A stretch of 64,000 nt of DNA from Polytrichum commune (lineage: Eukaryota; Streptophyta; Polytrichopsida; Polytrichales; Polytrichaceae), in assembly GCA_950295325.1 (NCBI GenBank), contig OX485805.1, positions 22,121,501 to 22,185,500 on the forward strand, given 5' to 3'. The notes below the pieces were generated by a model. It did not search any database, was not told the origin of the DNA, and saw only the letters and a program-made list of their open reading frames with translations. Made by a program: the position numbers and the translations under genes. Shown piece by piece: positions 6,084-64,000 of this stretch (the stretch's first letter is position 1; each line of letters starts with the position of its first letter).

Positions 6084-6940
6084 CTGATTGAGATCGATAG
6101 GAGATCAGAAGCAACGAATTAATTAACCTGATGGTTCACGACACGACACCACCACATTGAAGCTGTCGACACCATTCGTGACGTGATGGAGAGAGATGAG
6201 ATGAAAATTTTCACTTCACTACGATTGATGGAACTTCTGTGTACATTATTCAAATTCCACTACTGATTGAGATCGAGATCGACAGGAGATCAGAAGCCAC
6301 AAATCAACCTGACGATTCACGACACCACACCACCATATTGAAGCTGTCAACACCATTCGTGACGGAGAGATGAGATGAGATTTCACTTCACGATGATTGA
6401 TGGAACTTCTGTGTACATTATTCAAATTCCAATGCTGATTGAGATCGATCGGAGATTAGAAGCCAACTAACCTGATGGTTCACGACACGACACCACCACA
6501 TTGAAGCTGTCGACACCATTCGTGACGGAGAGAGATGAGATGAAAGATTTCACTTCACGATGATTGATGGAACTTCTGTGTACATTATTCAAATTCCAAT
6601 GCTGATTGAGATCGAGATCGACAGGAGATCAGAAGCAACAAATTAACCTGATGATTCACGACACGACACCACCACATTGAAGCTGTCAACACCATTCGTG
6701 ACGGAGAGATGAGATGAGATTTCACTTCACGATGATTGAGGGAACTTCTGTGTACATTATTCAAATTCCAATGCTGATTGAGATCGATCGGAGATCAGAA
6801 GCCAACTAACCTGATGGTTCACGACACGACACCACCACATTGAAGCTGTCGACACCATTCGTGACGGAGAGAGATGAGATGAAAGATTTCACTTCACGAT
6901 GATCGATGGAACTTCTGTGTACATTATTCAGCGCCGTCAA
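6084..6940 (+). repeat. Tandem satellite, five ~170-bp units with a dimeric higher-order pattern
   Basis: Units begin with CTGATTGAGATCGA at 6084, 6263, 6435, 6602 and 6774. Each continues through CACGACACGACACCACCAC, GAAGCTGTC, CCATTCGTGACGGAGAGA and GGAACTTCTGTGTACATTATTC. Unit spacing is 179, 172, 167 and 172 bp. The units at 6263 and 6602 share one set of variants (GAGATCGAGATCGACAGG, CTGTCAACACC). The units at 6435 and 6774 share another (GAGATCGATCGGAGAT, CTGTCGACACC). The true repeat is therefore a dimer of about 339 bp. The first unit carries extra insertions and the last is cut after TTCA. Period and higher-order structure resemble centromeric satellites, but this block is very short. 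Confidence 0.9.
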
Positions 6941-9563: not shown

Positions 9564-9911
9564 CTACACTACATATGATATTTAGTGTCATATGGTATTT
9601 TATGTCACTATGGTAACTTTTCGGATGACACTTATGAGTAATTGAACAAATATTGTTGTGGATGATGGATGAGTTCATCCATTGGCCAAAACTCTACCTT
9701 CTCTTGATAGCAACTACTAATGAAATATTGCCATGGATGATTGAGATTTGGATGAAAAATCACTTGGTAAGTGACAGTAATTGCAACATTGTAAATCTAT
9801 AATCCCCAAATGTTTTACAAGGAATGACAACTAATGTTGGGTTAACATTTAGTGTTGTTGACATTACACCGCGGTTAGAATTGGTGACACTAAATATCAT
9901 ATTTAGTGTAG
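9564..9911 (+). mobile_element. MITE, 'CACTAAATAT' family, ~348 bp
   Basis: The terminal inverted repeat of about 27 bp starts CTACACTACATATGATATTT on the left; the inverse of the right end reads CTACACTAAATATGATATTT. The TIR itself contains a near-palindrome (ACACTAAAT-ATG-ATATTTAGTGT). Related copies lie at 38930-39282 and 42447-42801 and share internal text such as CACTTACTAAGTGATTTTTC or its inverse and GAAGTGTCA or its inverse. There is no coding capacity, and target duplications could not be assigned. Confidence 0.7.
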
Positions 9912-34658: not shown

Positions 34659-37034
34659 TCACTCCACTTTGGCTGTCTTCAATTTCCTCATGGTTCTACT
34701 AAATGGCCCGACAGATGAGTCTGTGATGTACTTGTAGATCACATAAGTCCATGAAGTATGGTGAGCCAGGTTCTCATAAAATTCAGGAGCAATTTGCTTG
34801 ACCTGTTGAGAAATGAATCAAAGGTCAGAAGCCATCATATAACTCAAACTTCGAAAAACATTCACTTGCAACGAGCATGAAAAACAATGTAAGTTCGAAT
34901 GAAACACCTCAGTAGATTGCATGCACAAATCCATCTTCACCAAATTGAAGATCACAATGCCAGAAATTTGGCACTTACCCTGTACAGCTTGCAGCCAGGA
35001 ATTCGGGGGAAGTCGTGATGTTCCACATGGTAGCCAACATTCCAGGCCAAAAAGTTGAGAGGGCCATAGTAAGAATAGGTCTCTTGTCCCTTCAGAAACA
35101 CATAGTGCTCTGCAATGAAGTGGCCAGCAATAGGATGCATTCCCCCTCCAAGAAATGTGGAAAGGACCAAGTATATCAAAGCCTTCCACCCTGAACAATA
35201 GATTAATGCGGCATCAAAAGACAGTTGGGCAACTAAGTTTGAAACCTCCCATAAACCTGGGGTTTTTGGATTGAGGAAGAGGGGCCTGAGAGCATAGAAG
35301 AACAGTTGGCATAACACCCACAGTAATTTTGCCAAGGTGTTGGTCACAACCCGTCCTTCTGTGTAACTTGGGATGTCCATGTCATACCCTTCAACCCCTT
35401 GGTACCTGTGGTGCTCCAGATGATACTTTTGGAATGTCACTGACATGGGTATACTGATTGGTAGGTTTGCAAACACGCCAAGGAACCGATTGTAGATAGG
35501 TGTTGAGAAGGCCAGATTATGACTAAGCTCATGAATAGCGAGAAATAAGTTGTGGTTGAGAAAAGCCCCAAAGCAGTAGGCTACTGCTATCAGAATGGGC
35601 CATCTTGCATCTTGCATGACAGTTGCTGTCCAGGTTTGTAAAACTACAACAGAAACAACCTGCAAAAAGCCCACATACAGGTGTAATTAGACCTTCCTTT
35701 GTTATATCAAACACATCTTACCAGATGTGGGTAATCAAAGATTTGAAATAACCTATTTGGGAAATAACCTAGTCAAACCTACATCGAGATTTTAAGCCAA
35801 AGCTTTCCACTTCAGGAAGGCTCATCCAGCTAAAATCTGGAATCACAGACCATTCTGAGAAACGAAGGAATGCAACGCTGAAAGACTCCAGCACAAACCG
35901 ATACAGGATGCCAAACATGCTATTCCATGGAGGAGAGAACATAACGAGGACTCCTTCCACTCACTAAGAATCATAGTGTTCTTTTGACATTTTTGCTCCC
36001 AAGATATGGACAGCCAAGAACATGCTATACGTGCAAAATGTGCACATACATGTAACCATTACCAAACGTGCACCTACATGTAGACACTAGCGAATGTCGT
36101 GTTAAGGGATCCATTCCTTTACTCGAACAAACCAGCAACTTCGTTTTTACCACGGTTCTCATTCCAGGCGCCTCCCCTGTTCCTGAAACTTTTATCTTGC
36201 AATCCTTTGACTGCTTAGCATTGTTGCCTGGGAAGCACTCCCTTCCATCAGGGCTCCTTGCACGGCTCGTAAAACCCTCAACGACCTTACCAGTATCATT
36301 AATGATTGACATTCAATATCCTTAATTCAGATATTTCTTACGACATTTTTGCTCCTGAGAGTTGTAGAGTCAAAAACATGTCATGTGCAAATGTGCACCT
36401 ACAAGTGACCATTTAGCAGGTGTTTGTCTTGAAGGACACATTATTTCACTCGAACTCAAATTCTTTCACGGTTGTCATTCAGGGAGCCTCCCCTGTTCCT
36501 AAATTTTTTTTATCTTGCAATCCTTTGACTGCTTTGAATTATCTCCTGAGAGGCATTGTCTTCTTTCAGGGTTCCTTGGACGGATCCTAAAACCCTCGAC
36601 GACCTTACCAGTCTCGCACAGAGTACCGTCCACGGGGCGTACAGAGGCTTAATTCTCTTTTGCAGCTCACAGTGGGTGCAGACACGCATCATCGAACAAG
36701 GAGAAAAATCATCTCCATACGTACGTGTAACTGACATTACCAAAGTGCTTCACAATCTACTGACATAACCATCACGTTTCAGTTGAGGTTTCTAAAAAGA
36801 GAGGAGGCCCTAAATAAATCTCACCTGTGCAAATGCCCAGGGATCTGGTCCAAAGAGCTCCCGAATCTCGGGATGTGCTGCTAATATTTGCTTCCGCCTG
36901 GTGGCGTGTGGTTCATCCGTTTCAGACCAGAAGAAATCGGTTGCCATTTCATTCCCATTCTCAGACTTCGGCTCTCCCATGATTGGCACCGGGTGCGGCG
37001 TCGTTAGCAATCCCCCATCACCGCCACGGCCCAT
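34659..37034 (-). CDS. DES1: Sphingolipid delta-4 desaturase (DES1/DEGS type), 3 exons, 344 aa
   Basis: ER membrane di-iron desaturase that introduces the 4,5 double bond into the dihydroceramide long-chain base. Exons on the minus strand are 37034-36825, 35659-34979 and 34802-34659 (1,035 nt, all phase 0, GT..AG). The N-terminal lipid-desaturase region reads [15 protein letters not shown]...[13 protein letters not shown] (residues ~44-67). The three histidine boxes are intact: HELSH at 113-117, HLEHH at 150-154 and HVEHH at 281-285 (within [16 protein letters not shown]). Hydrophobic stretches lie around 91-112, 180-198 and 213-240. Length and boxes match the family, so the enzyme should be active. 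The start is ATG 37034 in a GCCATGG context; an upstream in-frame GTG at 37070 was rejected. Intron 1 (1,165 bp) holds a diverged tandem duplication. Confidence 0.96.
35986..36620. repeat. Diverged tandem duplication inside DES1 intron 1
   Basis: Two units about 356 bp apart start at 35986 and 36342 with GACATTTTTGCTCC. They share GTGCACCTACA, CTCCCCTGTTCCT, ATCTTGCAATCCTTTGACTG, AAAACCCTC and ACGACCTTACCAGT. Both lie wholly in the intron and have no reading frame of note. Confidence 0.8.
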
Positions 37035-42446: not shown

Positions 42447-42801
42447 CTACACTAAATATCATATTTAGTGTCACCAATTCTATTTGCCTTGCTCAATACT
42501 ACTTGTATGCCGCACATGTAGTGTCACCAACACTAAATGTAGCCCTAACATTATTTGCCATTCCCGTGTCATTTGGGCATTACGAATTTACAATGTTGTA
42601 ATTCCTTGCACTTACTAAGTGATTTTTCATCCAAGTTTCAATCACCCATGACATTAGTTAATTACACGGATGTTAGGATGCATAATATACCAAACTAAAA
42701 GTGGATGAACTAAACGTAAGTTGGACTGACAATACTTGTAAACTTATCATTCATAAGAAGTGTCACGTGGAATACCACAACAACACTAAGTACACTATCT
42801 A
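42447..42801 (+). mobile_element. MITE, 'CACTAAATAT' family, ~355 bp
   Basis: The left end is CTACACTAAATATCATATTT. The right end, near ACTAAGTACACTATCTAC, is a diverged inverse. Its right part is included in the tandem duplication that starts at 42646. Confidence 0.65.
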
Positions 42802-43602
42802 CATTGACTATCTCAAATAGTGTGTAAGGTACTAATTCTTGAAACACACACCAATTTGCAAGGTCTCAAAATCAACGAGCGTTGAACTTTCTTATTGAGT
42901 GATACTAAAACTCATGAATACATACATGCTCATTTATTATACATTTTAAGATATTTAGTGCATGTTCTAAGGTGTTGGTAGAGGGGTACAAAATTATATG
43001 CCAACACATGCTTGTCAATGGATAGTAATTTCAGCAAATAATGCCAAGACGAGCAATACTTCCTACATCTTGTGGTGGCACTATGAAACCTCATAATGTA
43101 AAGAAGTTTAGTATCACGTTCACCAACCCATGACATTATTTCATTACAAATATGTTAGGATGCATAATACACCAAACCAAAAGTGGATGAACTAAACGTA
43201 AGTTGGATTGACAATACTTGAAAACTTATCATTCATAAGAAGTGTCACTTGGAATAGTTACCACAACGACACCAAGTACACTATCTACACCGATTATCTC
43301 AAGTAGTGTGTGTGGTACTAATTCTTGAAACACACACCACTTTGCAAGGTCTCAAAATCAACGAGGGCTGAACTTTCTTATCGAGTGATACTACATTCAT
43401 GAATACATGCTCATTTATAAGCATTTATAGTGCGTGTTCTAAGATGTTTGTAGAGCGATACAAAATTATATGCCAACACATGCTTGTCGATGGATAGTAG
43501 TTTCAGCAAATAATGCCAAGACGAGCAATACTTCCTACATCTTGTGGTGGCACTATGAAACCTCATAACGTAAAGAAGTTTAGCATCACATTTACCAACT
43601 TC
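42646..43602 (+). repeat. Tandem duplication, two ~482-bp units
   Basis: CCATGACATT recurs at 42646 and 43128. Both units share GTTAGGATGCATAATA, AACTAAACGTAAGTTGGA, GAAACACACACCA, GCCAACACATGCTTGTC and CAAATAATGCCAAGACGAGC, ending in AAGAAGTTTAG. Each unit starts inside the neighbouring MITE, so the duplication happened after that insertion. The similar minus-strand frames at 42930-43136 and 43411-43620 are by-products. Confidence 0.9.
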
Positions 43603-53300: not shown

Positions 53301-53565
53301 GTCTACAAAGAAAATAAAGAAAATCATATGCAATCTATAGAAATTTGCGTATTTTTATTAAGGAAAAAAACCTTTTAGTCTCCACTAGGGGGGGTCGGGG
53401 AGTGCTATCTTATGAGCGGTAACTTATGAGAAGTGAGGAAGATGAAAATTTTGGTAATAGGGCCACCAATATCCTATAACCGTGGAATTGTGGCCTTAAA
53501 AATGATGATTTTAGGGTTTAGTAATAAGAGGGTTGAGAAGGATAAACAACATGAAGTCCAAAAAT
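50373..53565. other. AT-rich non-coding stretch, no gene recognised
   Basis: A short direct repeat occurs at about 50580-50700 and 50895-51015 (GTGCACACTCTCCCCTTGGTG, CATTGAAGCAT, TTTTTTGTGTGTGGTTTTGCA with variants). About 52380-52450 carries a phrase of the dispersed family seen at 29.2-29.9 kb. No domain was recognised in any frame. Confidence 0.45.
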
Positions 53566-56500
53566 TTATTCATAAGTAGTAGCACTAGACATGAAACTAT
53601 CTTTTGCCTCGTCATCTATATATATTCGAGCACCTTTGCATTGCGAATTGATTTTGGAACTATAGCAAGATTCTTCATTTGGATCCGAATCTTCGAGATT
53701 CAACATTGCAATTGCAACATTCTCGGCATATGATGGGAGACGCGGGCTACGACTTGGACTTCGTAGGAATTGTCTATGTGCCCAAAACGGGAGACATGTC
53801 CTCTTTCCAATCGTATTCCTGAAATCAAATCGATGAAACATGTAAATAATGTGAAGAAATAAAAATGAACCAATGAATTGAATGAAACGAATGAATTGAA
53901 TAAATTTTTTTTGTATCAAAACTTACTCACACTCAAATTCAAGCATCTCCTCATCCGAGAGGTCATCATCTTCTTTTGTGAGATCTTGTATATTCTCCTT
54001 AGATGACCCCTCTTTCAAAACCTTTTCCAAAAGCGGTTTCAATATGTGCTCAAACATGTCATTATCACCCTAAAATGCAAGAAGATGTCTGCCACATGCG
54101 CGTGTTGCTAGGATAGAAGCTCCAGTGGAACATGTCAAATCAACAACGCGTCCATTCGATGGTGTAAACAATTCAATAAGATCTTGAAAAAAACGCGGCG
54201 ATTTTTTATATGGCCCCCTCCAAGGTCTTCCCGATTTTTAAAGAAACGTGTTTTTTTCATCCACAAAATTGAAAAGCAAGTTTTTGCTTTTCAATCCAGT
54301 GCCGAAAAAAGTGGAGTTTGGTTGTCTCGTGGATTTTTTGGTAGTAAAATCCCTTACCAAGACATGAGCCATAAATGCCGGAGTCTACAAAAAAATGTAA
54401 ATTGTGTTAAAACTATATACAATGCAAATAACACCAAAATAATTAAATAGAAACAATTGTGATGTGTTATACTTACGGTGTAGGTTGGAGACTCCGGATC
54501 CTTGAACACCATGTACGAATTGAGGCAAATAAAAGTCCTAAGAACTTTCATGTTGCCGTTGTGTAAGGTTGAATTCAAAACCTTCTTGGTTTGCATATCG
54601 ATAGCAGAAAATACTATGAGGACGCCATCATCAGACAAGATGGACTTGCACAAGGACATTGTTGCAACCATCCAGTTCTTGTCATATTTATTCCAAAGAG
54701 GAATTTCAATAGGTCTATTGGAGAGGTTGAAGTCAAAACCGTCCGGAAATTGCAGAAAAACCAAGTCAACGGCAAATGGAGTCGGATTTCCCATGACATG
54801 AAATTCGCGATTGTCTTTGAACTGAAATACTACAACATATCACAATATAAGACACAAAATAAAATCCAAATGAAAGTAAGAACATTACAGAAAATACAAA
54901 ATGAAGATTACTTACATTTTCAAGAAATGCCCGCCATTGGATCCACTCAGGAGGGCCTACTTCAACCCCTTCAGACTTGTTCTTGACAGCAGTAGATCGA
55001 GCAAAAGAGAGCGTAAGAAAGTTCTTCAGTATGAATAACTCTTTTCTCAAAACATTCGTTGGCGCACGATGAATAGCGTCATAGGTGCTGGAGTAATGAA
55101 ATTCCAATACATCGCACCCGGATTTTGAACTTTCGCCTCTAAGTGTATTCTTATCCAAATCATTGGAAAGAACAAGCAATTCTTCATGTTGTGAAATTTC
55201 CGATTGACCTTGTATTTTGGTTTCAGGAACATGTTTTCTCTTACGACGTTTTGTCTCTTTTGGTTCTGGCTCTCTAAGTTTAAGCTGTACAATTTGTGCT
55301 TGCAAAATTGTAATATCACGAGGATCTACATTTTTGGCATCATTTATCTGACGGATTGTCTTCTCACTTGACGGACATGCATCCTTAGGACAATCAAGAT
55401 ACCAACCACAATCCTCATAGTGTGGGAGCGACCAATCCAAACAAATCTCAGTAGTGAACATGCATGAGTCTTCCGCACCAGTGTCATGCCAATTTGGAAA
55501 AAAACGAGGTTCTCCTATAACGCATTTGTGCGGAATCAAAACATATCGGAAATACCTACACACAAAAATATTATGAGCCAAATATTGAATGAAAAGTAAA
55601 ATGTAATGAAAAAATATCAAGAAATAGTAAAGAATAAGTTGTACCTGTATAGAACACGCTTCATAGCAAGATCAATATTCGGTTGCTCATCCCAAACGTT
55701 GTGTTTTTTTACTTTTCCGCTTTTGAATTCACGATAGAATATTGAATTGAAAGCCGCAAACTTCCAGGTTTGAATATATTCGGAGAGAGTAGGCACATCT
55801 GCAGGCAATTGAAGAGGAGATGAAAGAATACTTTGAAGCTCTTCAATAGTTTTTTTCTCTAATTGTGCCCAATATGTAGCCTTTGATAACCAATCATCAA
55901 GTGCAGAATCAGAGAGGGGTGATTTCAGGAAATACAATGCATCTTTGTCAAATCTATTGCCATTCCAAAGCTTGAGCCATCCGACTTTGACATCTGGATC
56001 CACATTACTAACAGCAACACGATGAAGTTTCTCTTGTAACATTTCAGGCACCGAAAATGAACCCCAATGGTGCTTAACTTCTTCAAGAAAAGCAGGGGTG
56101 AGGTTGATGTCAGCAATTGCTAGTTGTTTTGTAAAACTAGAAGACAACATTGCACGTTTTTTGTTGACAGCTGCGGACATTGCTTTAGAAACTCCTTCTG
56201 AAGTTCGTTCAAGAGGATGGGTTTCATTGTAAAGGTTGAGAGCAATATCGCTAGCCTCGGCAAGTTCTTGCTGAAAAATCAAACAAAATCCAAAATTAAT
56301 AAGTACATGTAGATGTGATCTAAATGAAAGATAAATAAACATTAAAAACATAGTAGGAAATGCTAGAAAAACTTACACTGTACATATAATCAAGAAAAAT
56401 TGGCCGCGTCAAAGAATACCAAGTTTCAACGGACTTCTCCTCACATCGCTTATAACTTCTAGGATCCAGTTGTTTTTTAAAAGAAGTCAAAGGCATGGTG

Positions 56501-57604
56501 CCAATACTTTGCATCCGATACAAAGTATGCACCAAATTGGTAGAAACGTGAGAGTTTTCTGTTGACCTGAAAAATAATTGAATTCATGGATTTAGGATGA
56601 TATAATTCAAATAACAAAATACAAACTAGAAATAAATGAAAATAAAGAAGTAAAAACATTACTTGTTGATGTCGTGCATAGCAGTCAACAAACTTGGAAT
56701 GTCATCAAGCTCGGGCGCCAAAATGATGGAATCCACAAAGACATGACGCTCGTAATCTTCGGTATGCAAGCGGTCAATATAACTTTTCCAAGCAAAAAAT
56801 CTGTGATTACCATCCCATATGAAGAACATCTTGTTCTTGTATGATGTAAATGAAGGATCGGCATTTAATTCAGTTTCAAACACCGCATTAGCTTGAGCCC
56901 AATTTGGGCTCCAAGATGCACGAACCTCGTCATCCATAAATTGAAAATTTCCCTTAGAGTCGGTAGCCGATAGATAAAACACACGGTCACCATCACGATA
57001 ACCATTGAAAAAGTCAGCCTCCAATTTAGTGATGTCGCCTTTCAAAGCAGGACGCACAATATGCATTGGAACCATGCGACATAAGGGTACACACAAACGA
57101 GATTTCGGTCCAGCACGGATTGAGAAAATTGTTGAAGTGGAATTAACCTTTTGCTTGTCCGTAAGCTCCCAGACTTTCTGTTGATAGGTTTTATTGTTAC
57201 CATCATTATCTTCATCCGAGTCAAAATCATCGAGAGATTCATTTATTTTTTTCTTTTTCTTATTATGAAGATTTGACGATATGTCCTGATGAACATGAAC
57301 TTGTTGAGATGGACGATCTTAACTTGAATGCATTGTAGAATCATCACCAGTAGAAATAACATTCATTCTCTCCAAATCCATTGATTGGTCCTAAAACAAA
57401 TGAAATAAGTTTCATAAATATTTCAAAACCAGTAGAAACACATTAGCAATAATATTACAAAAACAACAGCAATAGCAACAACAATAACAACAGCATACCA
57501 CGAACACAGGGAAGAATAACAAAAATTATTCTAGACACTACCATTTGCACCTTTAAATATTGTACGATAAGGGTGGCCGCTCACCCCAAAACTACAAGGG
57601 CAGA

Positions 57605-57745
57605 CCCTGTGCGTTAACTAGGTCGACAGTTTGGGTCGGTCGACCCAAACTAGGCCGACAGTTTGGGTCGCTCGACCCAAACTAGGTCGACAGTTTGGGT
57701 CGACCGACCCAAACCAGGCAGACAGTTTGGGTCGACCGACCCAAA
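57605..57745. repeat. Palindrome array 1: four 20-bp palindromes at exact 32-bp spacing
   Basis: TTTGGGTCG-NN-CGACCCAAA occurs at 57630-57649, 57662-57681, 57694-57713 and 57726-57745. The central dinucleotides are GT, CT, AC and AC. The 12-bp spacers are similar (CTAGGCCGACAG, CTAGGTCGACAG, CCAGGCAGACAG). The array is preceded by a half copy of the second palindrome type (CCCTGTGCGTTAAC at 57605-57618), so the two repeat types are physically fused here. It lies in intron 1 of the minus-strand ParB/methyltransferase-like gene. Confidence 0.95.
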
Positions 57746-57978
57746 CTGCCCGCAATTTACGCCTAATTATGCGCAATTACCCAGTCATCACGAAAGTACA
57801 AACAAACCTTGTACTGCACCTGTAGATGACAGAGCTTGCAGCGACGAGCTCCGGTCCGATAGATGAGAGAAAAAAGACTGAATGCTTTGAAGGTGTGGCA
57901 ATTTGTACTACTCGTCCCTGCGGCCATATTTAGCGTGGCTCTTCGTGCCCCGCATAGCCGCTAGAAAGTTGCCAGCGC

Positions 57979-58135
57979 AGACCCTGTGCGTTAACGCACA
58001 GGGTCTACTTGCCCAACTTTGTGAAGCCTCTAGCTAGGCAAGTAGACCCTGTGCGTTAACGCACAGGGTCTGCGCTAGCAACTTTGAGGCCACTGTGCGT
58101 TAGCGCATAAGGCCTGTGCGTTAATCGCACAGGGC
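57979..58135. repeat. Two perfect 28-bp GTTAAC-centred palindromes in a larger inverted repeat
   Basis: Each is the arm AGACCCTGTGCGTT followed by its exact inverse, at 57979-58006 and 58044-58071. The flanks are themselves inverted: GCCAGCGC on the far left against GCGCTAGC on the far right, and CTACTTGCC against GGCAAGTAG in the middle. The whole of about 57970-58082 is thus a palindrome made of palindromes. A third, imperfect set (CACTGTGCGTTAGCGCATAA, GCCTGTGCGTTAATCGCACAGGG) follows to 58135. All lie in intron 1 of the minus-strand gene. Confidence 0.92.
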
Positions 58136-58178
58136 CGAGACATGAATTTGCTAAAAACTTTTTTTTTTGAATTTGAAT

Positions 58179-58810
58179 TTACCAAGACATGAGCCATAAA
58201 TGCCGGAGTCTACAAAAAAATGTAAATTGTGTTAAAACTATATACAATGCAAATAACACCAAAATAATTAAATAGAAACAATTGTGATGTGTTATACTTA
58301 CGGTGTAGGTTGGAGACTCCGGATCCTTGAACACCATGTACGAATTGAGGCAAATAAAAGTCCTAAGAACTTTCATGTTGCCGTTGTGTAAGGTTGAATT
58401 CAAAACCTTCTTGGTTTGCATATCGATAGCAGAAAATACTATGAGGACGCCATCATCAGACAAGATGGACTTGCACAAGGACATTGTTGCAACCATCCAG
58501 TTCTTGTCATATTTATTCCAAAGAGGAATTTCAATAGGTCTATTGGAGAGGTTGAAGTCAAAACCGTCCGGAAATTGCAGAAAAACCAAGTCAACGGCAA
58601 ATGGAGTCGGATTTCCCATGACATGAAATTCGCGATTGTCTTTGAACTGAAATACTACAACATATCACAATATAAGACACAAAATAAAATCCAAATGAAA
58701 GTAAGAACATTACAGAAAATACAAAATGAAGATTACTTACATTTTCAAGAAATGCCCGCCATTGGATCCACTCAGGAGGGCCTACTTCAACCCCTTCAGA
58801 CTTGTTCTTG
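58179..58810 (-). repeat. 632-bp direct copy of methyltransferase-like exons (source 54354-54985)
   Basis: Base-by-base reading found no difference from 54354-54985, including both introns, so this is a DNA-level duplication rather than a retrocopy. It carries the end of exon 5, all of exon 6 and the start of exon 7 of the surrounding minus-strand gene, in the same orientation and inside that gene's intron 1. Its ends fall in exon sequence and show no obvious target duplication. A second GTAAG..AG exon set here could be spliced in as an aberrant exon. Confidence 0.95.
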
Positions 58811-58949
58811 CATTCTAACCCCGTTTTGAATGGTTTTTTTGTTCCTACGCTCTGAAGATCGATTTAAATTCATACAATAGATATTTGTTTACTTTTAGGC
58901 TCTCCTAGTCGTTTTACCTCCCAACTTTTGGCCTTCCTAAGTTGCTCTT

Positions 58950-59430
58950 ACAAACCCTGTGCGTTAACGCACATTGTTTCTCCTCCTAATTTTTTGCCTC
59001 CTAAGTTGCTCTTGCAAACCCTGTGCGTTAACGCACAGGGTTTCTCCTCCTAACTTTTTGCCTCCTAAATTGCTCTTGCAAACCATGTGCGTTAACGCAC
59101 AGGGTTTCTCCTCCCAACTTTTGGCCTTCCTAAGTTGCTATTACAAATCCTCTGCGTTAATGCACAGGGTTTTAGCTCCCAACTTTTGGCCTCCCTAAGT
59201 TGCTCTTATAAACCTTGTGCGTTAACGTATAGGGTTTTACCTCCAAACTTCTCGCCTCCTAAGTTGTTCTTATAAACCCTGAACGTTCTCCTCTTGCCTT
59301 CTAGCCTTCCTTAATTTCTGTTATATACCATGTGCATTAACGTATAGGTTTTTTCCTCTCCAATTTATAACCTCTATAAATTATTACTACATGATATGTG
59401 AGTGAACGTACAAGGTTCTCCGTCCTAACT
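58950..59430 (+). repeat. Decaying tandem array of ~64-bp units around the GTTAAC palindrome
   Basis: Units contain the arm CCCTGTGCGTT plus its inverse, then TTTCTCCTCC, AACTTTTGCCTCCTAAG and TTGCTCTTGCAAA. Palindromes start near 58955, 59019 (perfect, 59019-59040), 59083, 59148, 59212, 59275 and 59328. The match falls off from left to right until only ATGTGCATTAACGTATAGG remains at the end. The array ends just before exon 1 of the minus-strand gene and lies in its intron 1. Confidence 0.9.
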
Positions 59431-59758
59431 TACAACTTATGCACTATCAAATTATGTGAACGTTGAACTGACTTACCTTTTTGTTTGTCGTTTTCTTTGA
59501 ACCCGTCTTCAATTCGGACTCTGATATACGATCATCTATATCTTCTTTGGTCTTTGCACCTTCATCATCCTCCATCGCATCAAAATCCAGTGTCTTCATA
59601 GTTTCTTCTACCGTACTCAACAAGTTTATTTTCCCTTCCTTATTTGCATTCTTCTTTCCCACACTCAGTGTGAACTTTTTTTTCTCGGAAGTGAAATACA
59701 AAGCTTTCCTACGTCTTCTCTTCGGCCTCACGGGTGTTCTCTCTACATCGTCCACCAT

Positions 59759-60280
59759 CGTTGGTGTCTATGATATGTTTTCTATCAGGTACTATCATTT
59801 ATTCTTCCAATGTATCTATCTCACAAAATCCGGCGTATATTACGATCACATGTTGTAATTGGCGTTCAATGAGCGAGATATTTCGACGCGTTTGTCATTA
59901 TGTGTTTATTTTTGTTATATCCGCCAAAATTTTCTGACACCTACTTTGTTCTATTCATAATGAGCAATAATTTATTTTTCCAACCAATTTTAATTCTTTC
60001 TACATCTACGTCAGTCCACACATATATATTTTTGTTTTCTACCAATACTTTTAGTATTTGACGTCATTTTGTGTATATCTTGCTCGTAAATATTCTCTGA
60101 CTATTATTGTGTTATGTCCACTTCTGTATTATTAGATGCTATGTATCACACGCTTTCATCTCCATCCATTATTGTATCACACGTTTTCATTTCCATTCAT
60201 TTCCTCACACAATTCTATACAAAACCAACATTCACCCCATATTTTTGTGATGTGTTGTTCATATGTTCTTTTGATTTTCT
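59759..60280. promoter_or_regulatory. 522-bp divergent promoter region between the two element genes
   Basis: The minus-strand ParB/methyltransferase-like gene starts at 59758 and the plus-strand transposase starts at 60281, so any core promoters lie here. The region is AT-rich and has TATA-like text near 60021-60027 (ATATATA). No palindrome array occurs in it. Specific regulatory sites were not identified. Confidence 0.5.
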
Positions 60281-63200
60281 ATGGCTACCATTAGAGCTCA
60301 TGGATCTTTTGTTCCCTTCATCTTGCCACTCCAAGATGATGGTCATGTGAGTGTTTCAGAGGATTTACTTAGTTTGAGATTCAACCTCCAGATAGGAACC
60401 ATGTATTTAGAACATGAGATGTACTCTGCAGATGGAGAGGTGTATGAAACGATTTTGGTTCCAAAAAATAGAACTGATGTTGGTTTTATGTGGATCTTAG
60501 GACCTGGTTCAATTAGGGTGATAGGACTTTCTGAGTCTCAGATGCAAGCTTCAACTGTCATTTTGACAAACGAATCCGGTACATCCACAGTTCAAATTCC
60601 CTCTATCGCACCTGTTAAGGTGGAACCCCTTGATGATAGTGTGTTTGTGCTATCAGATTCAGAAGATGACATTTGTGCATCTGTTGATCTTTCAAACACA
60701 TCGCCATTTCCATTTAGAAGTGTTCATTCTACTCCTTCCCAACTTCCTATACATGTAGCCAAATCCCCTTGCGGTCTTATGTACAAGAAGGTGGTTCCCC
60801 AAATCTCACCTTCTCAACGTCCTCCACTACACCCTTCACCTTCATCTACAGGGTTGACTATGGTTGATGCCTTGAAGCTGACAAAGTCAAGAAAAAGATC
60901 AAAGTCCGATCTTGCATCCATTGATTTTGACAGTATAGATGTTCGTGAAGTCAAGTACTTACCATCTTCTTTTAATGGTGATGTTTTGTTTCTCTTGCCT
61001 CCTATGGCACTCAAAGCTCCAAGTACGTATGGTCGCTCAATGGACGGCATGGACAAGATGTGCGACGGTCATCCTTGGTGCACCACCAAAACCACGAATA
61101 TCCAAAATGACTTTAGACTGTCATTCCGGCGCTCTACTTGTGCTGGTCATCTCCAATGTCATAATGACTACTGTGATTACATGAATCGCAAAGGGGGCCT
61201 CCGAAACAACACTGAATGGGCCGGTTCAACTCCTATCCCATTTGTTGTGGGTGTTGTTCCCCCTACTAAGTCCACTGTCGAGTGTAAGGTATGTCGGTCC
61301 ACACCTGTGTGCATTGCTTTGTGTAATGCTCGAATCATATACATCCACTCCACATCCGTTGGAATGTCCAGGGCTTGCATTCATCTTGGTGTACATGATC
61401 ACCCTGTGGCCAATGGCACATGCTGTGAATCATTGGACATAGCATACCAATGCGTTGCAAATGAAGTATTGAAAACATCCACAGCAAAAAATTCAGCCAT
61501 AGTTATGGCGGCGAGCAAACAATTCTTGGCCGATTACCTTCTCAAATCTTCCGCAAATGTCGAAGGCCATCACTTGGTTGGTTCATCCCTAGAGGTCGTC
61601 ATGGACAAATTCAGCACTTTTGCGACTCCAAATTGTCGTAACTTTGTATCTGGATCAAAGCGTTTTTTGCGTAGTGGAATGGGAACTATGGATAGTATTA
61701 TGGCGCTCAAAGACCACTCTGCTTTCAAATTCGTCCATGGTAGTCGGTTCCCAGGGCAGTCAAAGGACAAAGTGTTTGTTTTCAAGATGTCTGTAGACCT
61801 TCCAGGTAGTGGTGTGGAGCTTGTGAAGAGGATGCAAGTCGGTGGGGATATGGAGAATTCATGGATTATGTTTGACCATGTCAAACGTTTGAAGGATTGG
61901 ACGACCATGGCTTGCCATGTGTACGACAGTCGATATTGTAAAGTGTTAACTATTGCGTGTTGTGACATGCAATCTGAAGATGGTGCAGCACAAATTCTCT
62001 TTTGGGAAAATTTGAATGCTGTCATGGCAGAAAATGGTGTACCATACGTAAACTTCAAAGGGTTTATGGCTGATAGTGCTCAAGCTAATTGGAATGCGGT
62101 GAGGGCGATTTACGGGGATGGTGATTCAAGTCTACCCATGGTTGCACGTGAGCGTACATGTCTTTTCCATTGGTCCGCAAGCTTGGATAAGGTGACCCAA
62201 AAGTATATCAAACCATCCTTGCAATTTCAACACAAACAAATATGCAAGGATTACAAAGACGCGAAAACAATGGACGACGCTGAGACCAAGTACCATGTGA
62301 TTCGTTCTTGGTGGCTGTCATCTGGAGCTGCCTCCGAGGAAGGCATCCTTGGCCTTTTAGAGTGGTTGGAATTTTGGCACTTTCGTTACAGACAATGGGG
62401 TGGCCATATGCTACTTGTAAGTACATATCAAACTTCATTACTCAATGTAATATATCTTATGTTTTTCTTATCTTTGTCTTTCTGTATTGTTCATAGGATA
62501 TGACAATAGAAGAGCGTACGGGAATGCCAACATGCAACCTTGCAGAGACTGTACACAACAAACAACAAATAGTTTGGGTCGTTCGACCCAAACCTTGTAT
62601 GCAGTTTGGATCGAACGACCCAAATGTGGCAGGCAGTTTGGGTCGTTCGACCCAAACGTGGCAGCCATTTTGGGTTGAACGACCCAAACCTAAATATATA
62701 ATCTATCTTATGTTTGTCTTATCCTTGTATTTGTGTGTTGTTCATAGGATATGACAATAGAAGAGCGTGCGGAAATGCCAACATGCAACCTTGTAGAGAC
62801 TGTACACAACAAATGGCTCCAACAGTCCGGCAACAAGATGACTTGTTTATATGAAGCTACAGTGGACGACATGATCCGTGCTTTCATGCAAATTGCAAAT
62901 TACCGGACATGGTTGAAAGGGGGGTCTGATGGTAAAGGTCCTGATTCGGCATCCTTGAAACTCAAAGCGGCTGCAAGGTGTGGAGATCCAAAAATGTTGG
63001 CCGATGCCATGAAGTCTTATCCAGGGGCAGAAGACGTCAACACTAGAGATTGTGCATTGGAAGGGTCAGAGCTCTTTGGTTCCACCAAACGCAAACTCAA
63101 CCTACCACCGGGTGCTGATTGTGACTCTCATCGACCCGACAAAGTGAACTATTCCATTCCCCGTCCGAACACCCGAGCAACTCGTCAACGCATAGAGGAA

Positions 63201-64000
63201 TCGTTAAGTTCTGCAATTCATGGTGTGGCTCATACTACATCCGTGTTAGAGACTGATTGTCTTGCTTCCAACTGGCACATTGCAAGATTATCACCCAACT
63301 CAGCCAAACGATGTTGGACACTGCAGGCCATCACAGGGACTATATGCAATGCCAAAGTCGGGACTGGGAAACATGGCACACCTGCTCCAACATATAAAGG
63401 GCTCAGGAAGGAATTTCGCTCTCCCAACAATGTGGAGTATGAATTTTGGTTTTGCCCTGACGACATCAAACGTTGTGTGAGTGGCAGTAAGAAGAAATAT
63501 GTGTTGGACTGGCCTATAGTATCCAACACGTGGCCGGTGAAGATAGGTACCAATCTATCGCGAGAGGAGGTTTTGGCACTTGAAGATGCTGGATTTCAAC
63601 TACAGCAGAGGGAGGCATTGTCCCCTCGTCGTAGGCTTTCAACAATCGCAACTCTTCCCATCCCTCGCTCGCATTTTTCTATGCCACCAAACCCGGACGC
63701 CCACCCTACATTCAGGTTTGGGAAGACAGTGCGTCGTAATCCAACAACACCGCTAGCGGATCACAAAAACAAATGGGAGAGCGCCGGACTCATGGAGGGT
63801 TACTATGTGGTTGGGGTCACTGCCATTCCATATCCGGGCTTTGGAGTGATAATCAACATTGTCTCCAAGCAGGATATCACCTACCATGTCACAATTGGCG
63901 ACATCCCGCATTGCACATGCCCGGATTTCACGAAAATGTCCTCTCATGCATTGGGAAAGAAAGAAAAATGGGTGTATTGTAAACATCTTTATTATGTGTT
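60281..64000 (+). CDS. MULE-type transposase with zinc cluster and SWIM finger (3' end outside window)
   Basis: Exon 1 is 60281-62416 (712 codons, phase 0). Exon 2 runs open from 62748 to the window edge (417 codons, no stop), so at least 1,129 residues are encoded. Residues ~261-298 and 335-338 hold Cys/His pairs (CDGHPWC, CAGHLQCHNDYC, CKVC) resembling the WRKY-GCM1 fingers of Mutator-like transposases. The core has D562 (IACCDMQSEDG), D598 (FMADSAQANW) and the CxxH block RTCLFHW (627-630). A Glu in EEGILGLLEWLEFWHF is the likely third acid. The C-terminus has a CxC...CxH SWIM finger (CTCPDF ... YCKH, 63912-63986), typical of MULE and FAR1 proteins. Residues ~120-240 are a Ser/Pro-rich linker. 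The frame is fully open, unlike the other transposon relics, so the gene may be functional or recently active. Its TIRs were not found. Confidence 0.85.
62417..62747 (+). other. Transposase intron with duplicated splice acceptor
   Basis: The donor is CTT|GTAAGT at 62417. Two nearly identical acceptors, each TTGTTCATAG|GATATGAC, lie at 62497 and 62748. Only the second leads into the long open frame, and it keeps phase 0. The first leads through the palindrome array to a TGA at about 62752, so using it would truncate the protein. Confidence 0.85.
62446..62813 (+). repeat. 117-bp direct duplication (intron end plus exon start) flanking palindrome array 2
   Basis: 62446-62562 and 62697-62813 are the same intron-end and exon-start sequence, offset by 251 bp with about ten differences. 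Both carry ATCTTATGTTT, TTCATAGGATATGACAATAG, AAGAGCGT and ATGCCAACATGCAACCTT. The palindrome array sits exactly between the two copies. The duplication looks like a by-product of array insertion or expansion. Confidence 0.92.
62573..62688. repeat. Palindrome array 2: four 20-bp palindromes at exact 32-bp spacing
   Basis: TTTGGGTCG-NN-CGACCCAAA or one-base variants occur at 62573, 62605, 62637 and 62669, with centres TT, AA, TT and AA. The second and fourth have one arm change each (TTTGGATCG, TTTGGGTTG). The 12-bp spacers are CCTTGTATGCAG, TGTGGCAGGCAG and CGTGGCAGCCAT. It has the same unit, spacing and copy number as array 1 at 57630-57745, about 5 kb away, and lies in the intron of the transposase gene. 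Confidence 0.95.

Follow-up and report, generated by a model that had tools for sequence, protein, structure and literature searches.

A divergent pair of transposase and ParB/methylase-like genes with palindrome arrays in a putative Mutator-like transposon of Polytrichum commune

In a 64-kb stretch of the Polytrichum commune genome (C3:22121501-22185500, contig OX485805.1 of assembly GCA_950295325.1; hereafter the window), a transposase gene lies head to head with a gene for a ParB/methylase-like protein (gene 2). The two genes form one mobile element, here called family A, which has been copied many times. The gene pair is retained across several lineages, gene 2 is under purifying selection in 9 of the 10 pairs for which this could be computed, and several sister lineages have different palindromes. 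From these sequences we propose, with confidence just short of even, that family A is a two-gene Mutator-like transposon in which the protein of gene 2 binds the palindrome arrays of its own element and thereby shields the element from silencing, or controls the promoter region shared by the two genes, much as VANC does in the VANDAL transposons of Arabidopsis.

Extent, ends and copies of the element

As originally predicted from the sequence of the window, the two start codons lie on opposite strands with 522 bases between them (60281, +; 59758, -). The genome searched comprises 408 Mb in 64 contigs, and almost all listed matches fell on seven of these. Employing exon 1 of the transposase as the query, we scored 62 matches out of 2,788 first-look candidates; for the exon encoding the ParB-like part of gene 2 (ParB exon), 1,241 candidates yielded 151 matches, 150 of which were used for pairing. 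The pairing counts refer to these partial lists rather than to genome totals. A divergent ParB exon was located upstream in 51 of the 62 scored transposase matches (within 5.4 kb in 49 of them and mostly near 3 kb); 10 others showed no ParB exon within 20 kb, and 1 showed another orientation. Homologues of the two genes are commonly adjacent rather than unlinked.

We compared the ends of four family A copies, namely the window copy and the three next-best matches to transposase exon 1. All four start with GGGGAGTGCTATCTTATGAGCGG and end, on the other strand, with GAGGGAA(G/T)CTATCTTATGAGCG. An imperfect terminal inverted repeat, GCTATCTTATGAGCG..., is present at both ends of each, and a variant of it at both ends of one copy of a sister family, C. 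Perfect 10-bp target site duplications, all different, flank the four copies (AGGGGGGGTC, ATCCTACAAG, CCTTATCTTA and GTCCTTTTAG), which range in length from 11,604 to 11,893 bp. The original prediction had proposed one mobile unit without finding its ends and had named common terminal repeats and target duplications as a check. The ends of the window copy are now located at 53397 and 65000, the right one 1,000 bp outside the window, and both features were found in 4/4 A copies and in the C copy. Repeated adjacency and shared ends, not the palindromes described below, establish the pair as one unit.

For the Mutator-like element (MULE) superfamily, target site duplications of 8-11 bp are described (PMC6446971). 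The duplications read in lineages A and C fit this range, being 10 bp in 4/4 A copies and in the 1/1 C copy with both ends read, and the terminal inverted repeats of the same copies fit as well. The Pfam model of the MULE transposase, PF10551, recognised neither exon 1 nor exon 2 of the window copy nor its relatives, even with E values up to 10 allowed, and none of the genome's listed PF10551 matches, read by eye, fell at a listed transposase position. Matches to the SWIM zinc finger model PF04434 were weak and below the cut-off (E=0.099 in the window, E=0.039 in a relative fragment, L014). We therefore use "Mutator-like" as a label based on the 10-bp duplications, the terminal repeats and the weak SWIM match; the predicted MULE type was upheld by the duplications and terminal repeats, but not by the Pfam MULE model.

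The transposase gene consists of two exons, with an array of palindromes in the intron between them (Table 1); in another family A copy (the C6 copy), exon 2 contains one stop. Gene 2 of the C6 copy has 8 exons separated by GT-AG introns and is open throughout, encoding 1,191 amino acids. The window copy of gene 2 is broken by three in-frame stops, one of them in exon 2 and the others in exon 7, and by a gap of one base in exon 8.

Table 1. Coordinates of family A features in the window (position 1 is the first base of the window)
Feature	Position	Strand	Basis or remark
Family A transposon, window copy	53397..64000 within window (full 53397-65000, 11,604 bp; C3:22174897-22186500)		ends from comparing 4 copies
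10-bp target site duplication AGGGGGGGTC, left copy	53387..53396		right copy 65001-65010, beyond window
Left terminal inverted repeat GGGGAGTGCTATCTTATGAGCGG...	53397..53440	+	right end on other strand = GAGGGAATCTATCTTATGAGCGATGAGC...
Putative Mutator-like transposase, exon 1	60281..62416	+	genome search, gene model
Transposase intron 1	62417..62747	+	gene model
Transposase exon 2	62748..64000, past window end (stop near 64115 if length as in C6 copy)	+	SWIM-like zinc finger near end
Transposase-intron array, spacing 32	62573..62688 (exact 62573, 62637; one mismatch each 62605, 62669)		two exact + two one-mismatch
Gene 2, ParB/methylase-like, 8 exons	59758-59477, 57390-56663, 56566-56377, 56270-55645, 55555-54916, 54821-54477, 54384-53927, 53818-53511 (span 53511..59758)	-	gene model
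Gene 2 intron 1, both palindrome arrays inside	57391..59476	-	gene model
ParB-like domain with GNHR motif	56663..57156	-	by motif; Pfam does not recognise
N6/N4 DNA-methylase-like domain, exons 6 and 7	53927..54821	-	PF01555 E=1e-4 (intact C6 copy, below cut-off); profile to DpnA E=0.0022
Array 1, four exact TTTGGGTCGNNCGACCCAAA, spacing 32	57630..57745 (57630, 57662, 57694, 57726)		gene 2 intron 1
Array 2, ACCCTGTGCGTTAACGCACAGGGT + decayed copies, mostly 64-65 bp apart, two blocks	57986..59345		gene 2 intron 1
Exact 632-bp copy of 54354-54985	58179..58810	-	between two blocks of array 2

Similar pairs were found outside family A. Sister family C (L010 and L014) shares its layout and terminal motif with A and has the 10-bp duplication CATGTCCCCA on both sides; the C transposase is 77% identical to that of A. 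In lineage D (L015 and L012), an N-terminal transposase match (40% identity) and the ParB exon are on opposite strands, about 8.7 kb apart. We further read 8 kb for a transposase at each of eight ParB loci with 45-56% identity to the C exon; a divergent transposase was present in four (L037, L038, L040 and L042) and in none of the other four. The ratio of nonsynonymous to synonymous substitution rates (dN/dS) of the ParB exon was 0.18-0.35 in eight pairs and 0.03 in a pair from a second transposon type, family B (dS 2.3, near saturation), giving 0.03-0.35 in 9/10 computable pairs; three pairs were not computable. The transposase of A compared with that of C showed a dN/dS of 0.10.

Two further arrangements of family A were observed. 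At C7:12035862-12076594, two mirror-image copies with equal gene distances (3,069 bp) suggest a large inverted duplication or an assembly effect. At C1:438280-479996, 39 kb separate a transposase match from a ParB match, and this interval contains palindrome clusters, an arrangement that a single A element split by insertions would give.

Palindrome arrays and their distribution

The first intron of each gene carries an array of the palindrome TTTGGGTCGNNCGACCCAAA with a spacing of 32. Four copies in each had been predicted, and four were counted: all exact in gene 2, two exact and two with one mismatch in the transposase intron. The number of exact sites differs among A copies (6 in the window copy, 10 in the C6 copy). 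Intron 1 of gene 2 also holds a second array family, GTGCGTTAACGCAC, with five exact sites (57986-59100). In window 53397-64000 there are 11 palindromes with arms of at least 8 (G+C at least 40%), where 20 dinucleotide shuffles average 0.15; for window 1-53000 the count is 4 and the average of 10 such shuffles is 0.90. Around the transposase-intron array lies a 118-bp direct repeat (92%; 62445-62562 and 62696-62813), which repeats the start of exon 2. The 632-bp copy in Table 1 represents part of gene 2, exons and introns together, inside the gene's own intron 1; the C6 copy is without its left junction.

Genome-wide, the TTTGGGTCGNNCGACCCAAA pattern occurs at 9,731 sites, against 0 for the reversed-pattern control and 0 for the same pattern with three central bases in place of two. 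The listed sites are the first 100 of the 9,731 and span C1:0.44-2.16 Mb. Of these, 97 have a listed A or B gene no more than 7 kb away and the remaining 3 have one within 17 kb; the 7-kb neighbourhoods of these genes make up 0.8% of contig C1. A genome-wide sample drawn via an additional word comprised 13 sites. Five were fetched, and 5/5 were in B elements (four in transposase-side genes, one in a methylase-side gene); two further sites are 5.7 and 5.9 kb away from ParB-B exons on the list, and the remaining six have the same 35 bases as the fetched ones. Among the sampled sites, the main palindrome is confined to two transposon types.

Occurrence of the arrays genome-wide in unrelated introns had been named as a result that would speak against the original prediction. 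The palindrome does occur genome-wide, but the listed sites are near A or B genes and not in unrelated introns. The view of the palindrome as a cis sequence particular to the gene pair had to be given up, and the palindromes were rejected as proof that the two genes form a unit, since they are also present in an unrelated transposon type.

This other type, family B, is represented at C1:2112817-2129768 by a 16.95-kb locus with 28-bp perfect terminal repeats. B duplications are 4 bp long (ATAA and TTGT, 2/2 copies). B carries a DUF7869 gene (PF25273 E=2e-41) and a divergent gene which, by reading, has a ParB-like motif and a methylase-like end; the family A window exons gave zero matches in C1:2114001-2128000 at E 1e-3. 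It is common: first-look candidates numbered 1,416 for one of its genes and 948 for the other. The Sola superfamily is described as having 4-bp target duplications (PMC10741241, PMC3627910), and by the length of its duplications B may belong there. A third gene of B elements resembles NLI/FCP1-type phosphatases (L024:3705-4553, PF03031 E=6e-15), and the frame at L008:250-1092 resembles it by reading. The B palindromes lie partly within an open frame with the peptide FGSxDPN (L008:1540-3036, L024:1861-3234). Three ParB-B matches with identical scores, at C3:10603569, 10687344 and 10771186, are spaced by about 83.8 kb, which suggests a tandem triplication or an assembly effect.

The geometry of the main palindrome is fixed. 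Exact half-site pairs numbered 34 in the fetched A loci and 37 in the B loci, all with a spacer of 2 and none with 0, 1 or 3-12, and the half-site TTTGGGTCG was absent from 30 kb of C loci and 30 kb of D loci. Information content was about 1.4-2 bits per base in the arms and 0.3-0.6 in the centre, B spacers having mostly less than 0.4. CpG decay was considered as the main mutation and rejected, CpG transitions, at 4 of 18 positions, accounting for 4/16 changes in A and 7/36 in B.

Other palindromes are specific to lineages. An A palindrome, TGTGCGTTAACGCACA, has 694 sites genome-wide; all of the 50 listed have an A gene within 18 kb, and for 43 of them the distance is under 7 kb. A C palindrome, GGCATCTCGNNNNCGAGATGCC, has 38 sites in 18 clusters and is found within 6 kb of 6/10 ParB-C matches (at least 61% identity; chance about 0.0006 each). 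A D palindrome, GGKTTCGGNNCCGAAMCC, has 552 sites compared with 1 for the control, and one cluster taken from the list contained a 95% identical ParB-D exon. In all eight tabulated palindromes, CG stands on both sides of a 2- or 4-base centre. GATC is found at the palindrome centre (CGGATCCG) in three lineages (L039, L040, L041, L010) and not in A, D or L042; GATC is the target of Dam-type adenine methylases.

The gene 2 protein and its possible role

The GNHR motif of gene 2 is, we presume, the ParB motif. The ParB label derives from this GNHR/GQHS motif, identified by reading, and from the architecture of the protein, and is made more likely by a published algal protein of the same architecture. 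The ParB part of B gave zero matches to phages, and the methylase part matched 5 plasmid records (best E 0.02). For the methylase-like part, the N6_N4_Mtase model PF01555 matched A with E=1e-4 and C with E=4e-4 (22.7 and 20.9 bits against a cut-off of 26.7); against the whole 1,191-aa protein, E was 0.15. The Pfam search found no methylase match in the B and D pieces. A four-row profile searched against PDB retrieved 10 sequences up to E 10, and 9/10 were methyltransferases with DpnA first, the alignment covering the last quarter of the profile. All NCBIfam matches were far below cut-off, including that of C to a DNA methyltransferase model (E=0.0018).

Motif IV of N6/N4 methylases usually has the form [DNS]PP[YFW]. 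By reading, it is QFPDG in A, DLPEG in C and DIPEG in D, while a motif I-like stretch is retained. The methylase identity is a matter of resemblance only, and catalytic activity is doubtful because motif IV is not of the usual form. The description "ParB/methyltransferase-like" given in the original prediction may stand for a weak methylase resemblance and a ParB motif, the methylase matches being below the Pfam cut-off, motif IV altered and the ParB part unmatched. An active enzyme (making N4-methylcytosine or N6-methyladenine) that marks its own element, as has been proposed in print for algal transposons (PMC12477816), would agree with the similarity in two lineages, with the methyltransferases found in PDB and with the motif I-like stretch. 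We consider it very improbable, given motif IV and matches that stay below cut-off, begin at profile position 30-36 and do not cover the catalytic end.

The altered motif IV suggests that binding counts for more than catalysis. We infer that the palindromes are bound by the gene 2 protein and that the element thereby escapes silencing. One gene would provide the transposase, and the divergent gene a bacterial-style ParB-like plus methylase-like DNA-binding protein. The intronic arrays would serve as the address label of the element: a dimer of the gene 2 protein would bind each palindrome, and where sites are clustered, enough protein would be loaded to coat or mark the element. Protein so loaded may prevent silencing or control the shared promoter region in a VANC-like manner and, if the domain still methylates, may also mark the sites. 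Sites bound by a dimer that the element encodes would be expected to look like this: their geometry is fixed, the arms are strong and the centre free, the introns of both genes contain arrays, and the sequence is specific to the lineage.

A number of results weigh against this proposal. The ParB domain was unmatched in Pfam and PDB searches apart from DUF1015 at E=0.11, a single-sequence structure model of the window ParB exon was poor (predicted local distance difference test score, pLDDT, 43.5), motif IV is altered as given above, and the ParB exon dN/dS was 0.58 in a closely related C pair. A and B share a palindrome with ParB parts that align at 18%, whereas those of A and C are 45-49% alike and their palindromes differ; ParB similarity was rejected as a predictor of the palindrome for both comparisons. 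No exact C palindrome lies near 4/10 ParB-C matches, and 12/18 C-palindrome clusters (20/38 sites) have no listed ParB-C match within 6 kb, one of these 12 being 4.7 kb from an A-type ParB exon. This cluster count lowered our confidence from an even chance to slightly below it. On C1, no D palindrome occurs within megabases of two D-type ParB exons that belong to other sublineages, and locus L013 has none. Secondary palindromes without a CG centre occur in D (TTGAAGCCTCGGCTTCAA) and L041 (ACGGGTGAACACCCGT).

We had also predicted in advance that each of the eight new ParB loci repeats one palindrome, with the bar set at half. By the strict rule a repeated palindrome was present in 3/8 (four copies in L039, three in L040 and thirty in L041), which likewise counts against the proposal. 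The figure rose to 4/8 when the centre was free to vary, adding L042 with two copies of common arms and different centre. By the strict rule, none was repeated in L037, L038 and L043, and L044 had a single one. Only a loosened rule gave 6/8, by adding L038 and L044, whose palindromes lie in longer repeats without a CG centre and could be of chance origin. None of six control stretches, all from window 1-48000, had a repeated palindrome. We take the outcome as half support, at the preset bar.

The palindromes may instead be bound by the transposase or a host factor, the arrays being enhancers or assembly sites and unrelated transposons converging on a site read by the host. A common host factor would fit the occurrence of one palindrome in two types of transposon whose ParB parts are very different, the dimer geometry of the half-sites would be accounted for as well, and most C-palindrome clusters have no listed ParB-C gene nearby. 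A single host factor, however, would not need different palindromes in several sister lineages, and the sampled main-palindrome sites adjoin genes of two types of transposon, each with a ParB/methylase-like gene of its own; we regard this explanation as rather unlikely.

More improbable still is that the arrays are functionless by-products of slippage and break repair, which would amplify palindromes and tandem repeats inside elements. Such an origin would explain the varying site number among A copies, the exact 632-bp duplication between palindrome blocks, the repeated stretch around the transposase-intron array and the four new loci without a repeated palindrome even with the centre free. 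It does not sit well with the strict preference for two over three central bases (other spacers were counted in the fetched loci), with B arms of 1.6-2 bits beside uninformative spacers, with B palindromes lying partly in an open reading frame, or with the six control stretches.

Returning to binding by the gene 2 protein, the sharing of a palindrome by A and B without close ParB parts would mean either that sites of B spread into A, which makes use of the B protein, or that another factor reads them. A wider scheme, which we hold more tentatively than the proposal for family A, is that transposon-borne ParB/methylase-like proteins are self-recognition factors with parS-like sites. Each lineage would possess a private palindrome array (arm-CG-2/4 bases-CG-arm), protein and palindrome would co-evolve, and the anti-silencing function would have arisen independently of VANC; family A, in which the palindrome of the abundant family B is also present, may depend on the protein of B.

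Related systems and sequences outside the element

In bacterial plasmids and chromosomes, a dimeric ParB loads at a palindromic site, parS. The arrays described here are unlike parS in that their sequence differs between lineages and they belong to a eukaryotic transposon, the ParB homology being one of motifs. No ParA gene was noticed, though no search was aimed at ParA. Bce_0392 of Bacillus cereus has the same fusion of a ParB-like domain to a DNA methylase, with nicking reported for the ParB part (PMC5512222), but it is bacterial, and the available part of that paper mentions no palindrome array or transposase partner.

ParB/methylase accessory genes are already known in algal transposons (PMC12477816). 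In Sola1-1_Ec32 of Ectocarpus, a large DNA transposon, such a gene lies on the strand opposite the transposase, and its protein was proposed to bind and modify its own transposon; green and red algal cases are cited in the same paper, including a Bostrychia paper and a 2011 chapter by Iyer and others. Family A resembles Sola1-1_Ec32 in having a long ParB-like plus N4/N6 methylase-like protein encoded opposite a transposase, with domain labels that are weak here, and by its gene model and the divergent pairs, gene 2 belongs with this class of accessory proteins. Family B, with its 4-bp duplications and 16.95-kb length, may be the same kind of carrier. The MULE-like lineages differ from what is available on Sola1-1_Ec32 in their 10-bp duplications (where ends were read), their lineage-specific palindrome arrays and their altered motif IV; the available part of PMC12477816 mentions no palindromes and no target site.

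VANDAL elements of Arabidopsis are MULEs with additional proteins, in which short motifs are tandemly amplified in introns and upstream regions; the motifs differ between related families, and VANC, which binds them, causes DNA methylation to be lost (PMC5735166). As far as the available text allows comparison, family A shares with VANDAL a MULE-like carrier and tandem intron arrays that differ between related families. The motif is unlike YAGTATTAY of VANDAL, being a long palindrome whose centre is flanked by CG. Gene 2, which resembles ParB/methylase, is set beside VANC by their descriptions only.

The original prediction knew of no MULE with a ParB-methylase partner. For Mutator-like carriers our literature searches found none, but partners of this kind are in print for a brown alga transposon (PMC12477816). 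As far as our searches show, what is new is the Mutator-like carrier with 10-bp duplications together with lineage-specific palindrome arrays as candidate targets. The arrays provide a concrete candidate target and turn the suggestion of self-binding made for algae into a binding experiment. If the proposal is true, transposons would have acquired sequence-specific self-recognition of the same kind through two different protein types, VANC and ParB/methylase-like, and a eukaryotic genome parasite would have put a bacterial partition-like protein to new use.

Outside the element, the window contains tandem repeats at 6084-6930 and 42644-43599, with units of 172/339 bp and 472 bp. An open frame with histidine-box motifs at 34952-35686 (-) resembles, as we take it, a sphingolipid desaturase and is perhaps a host gene.

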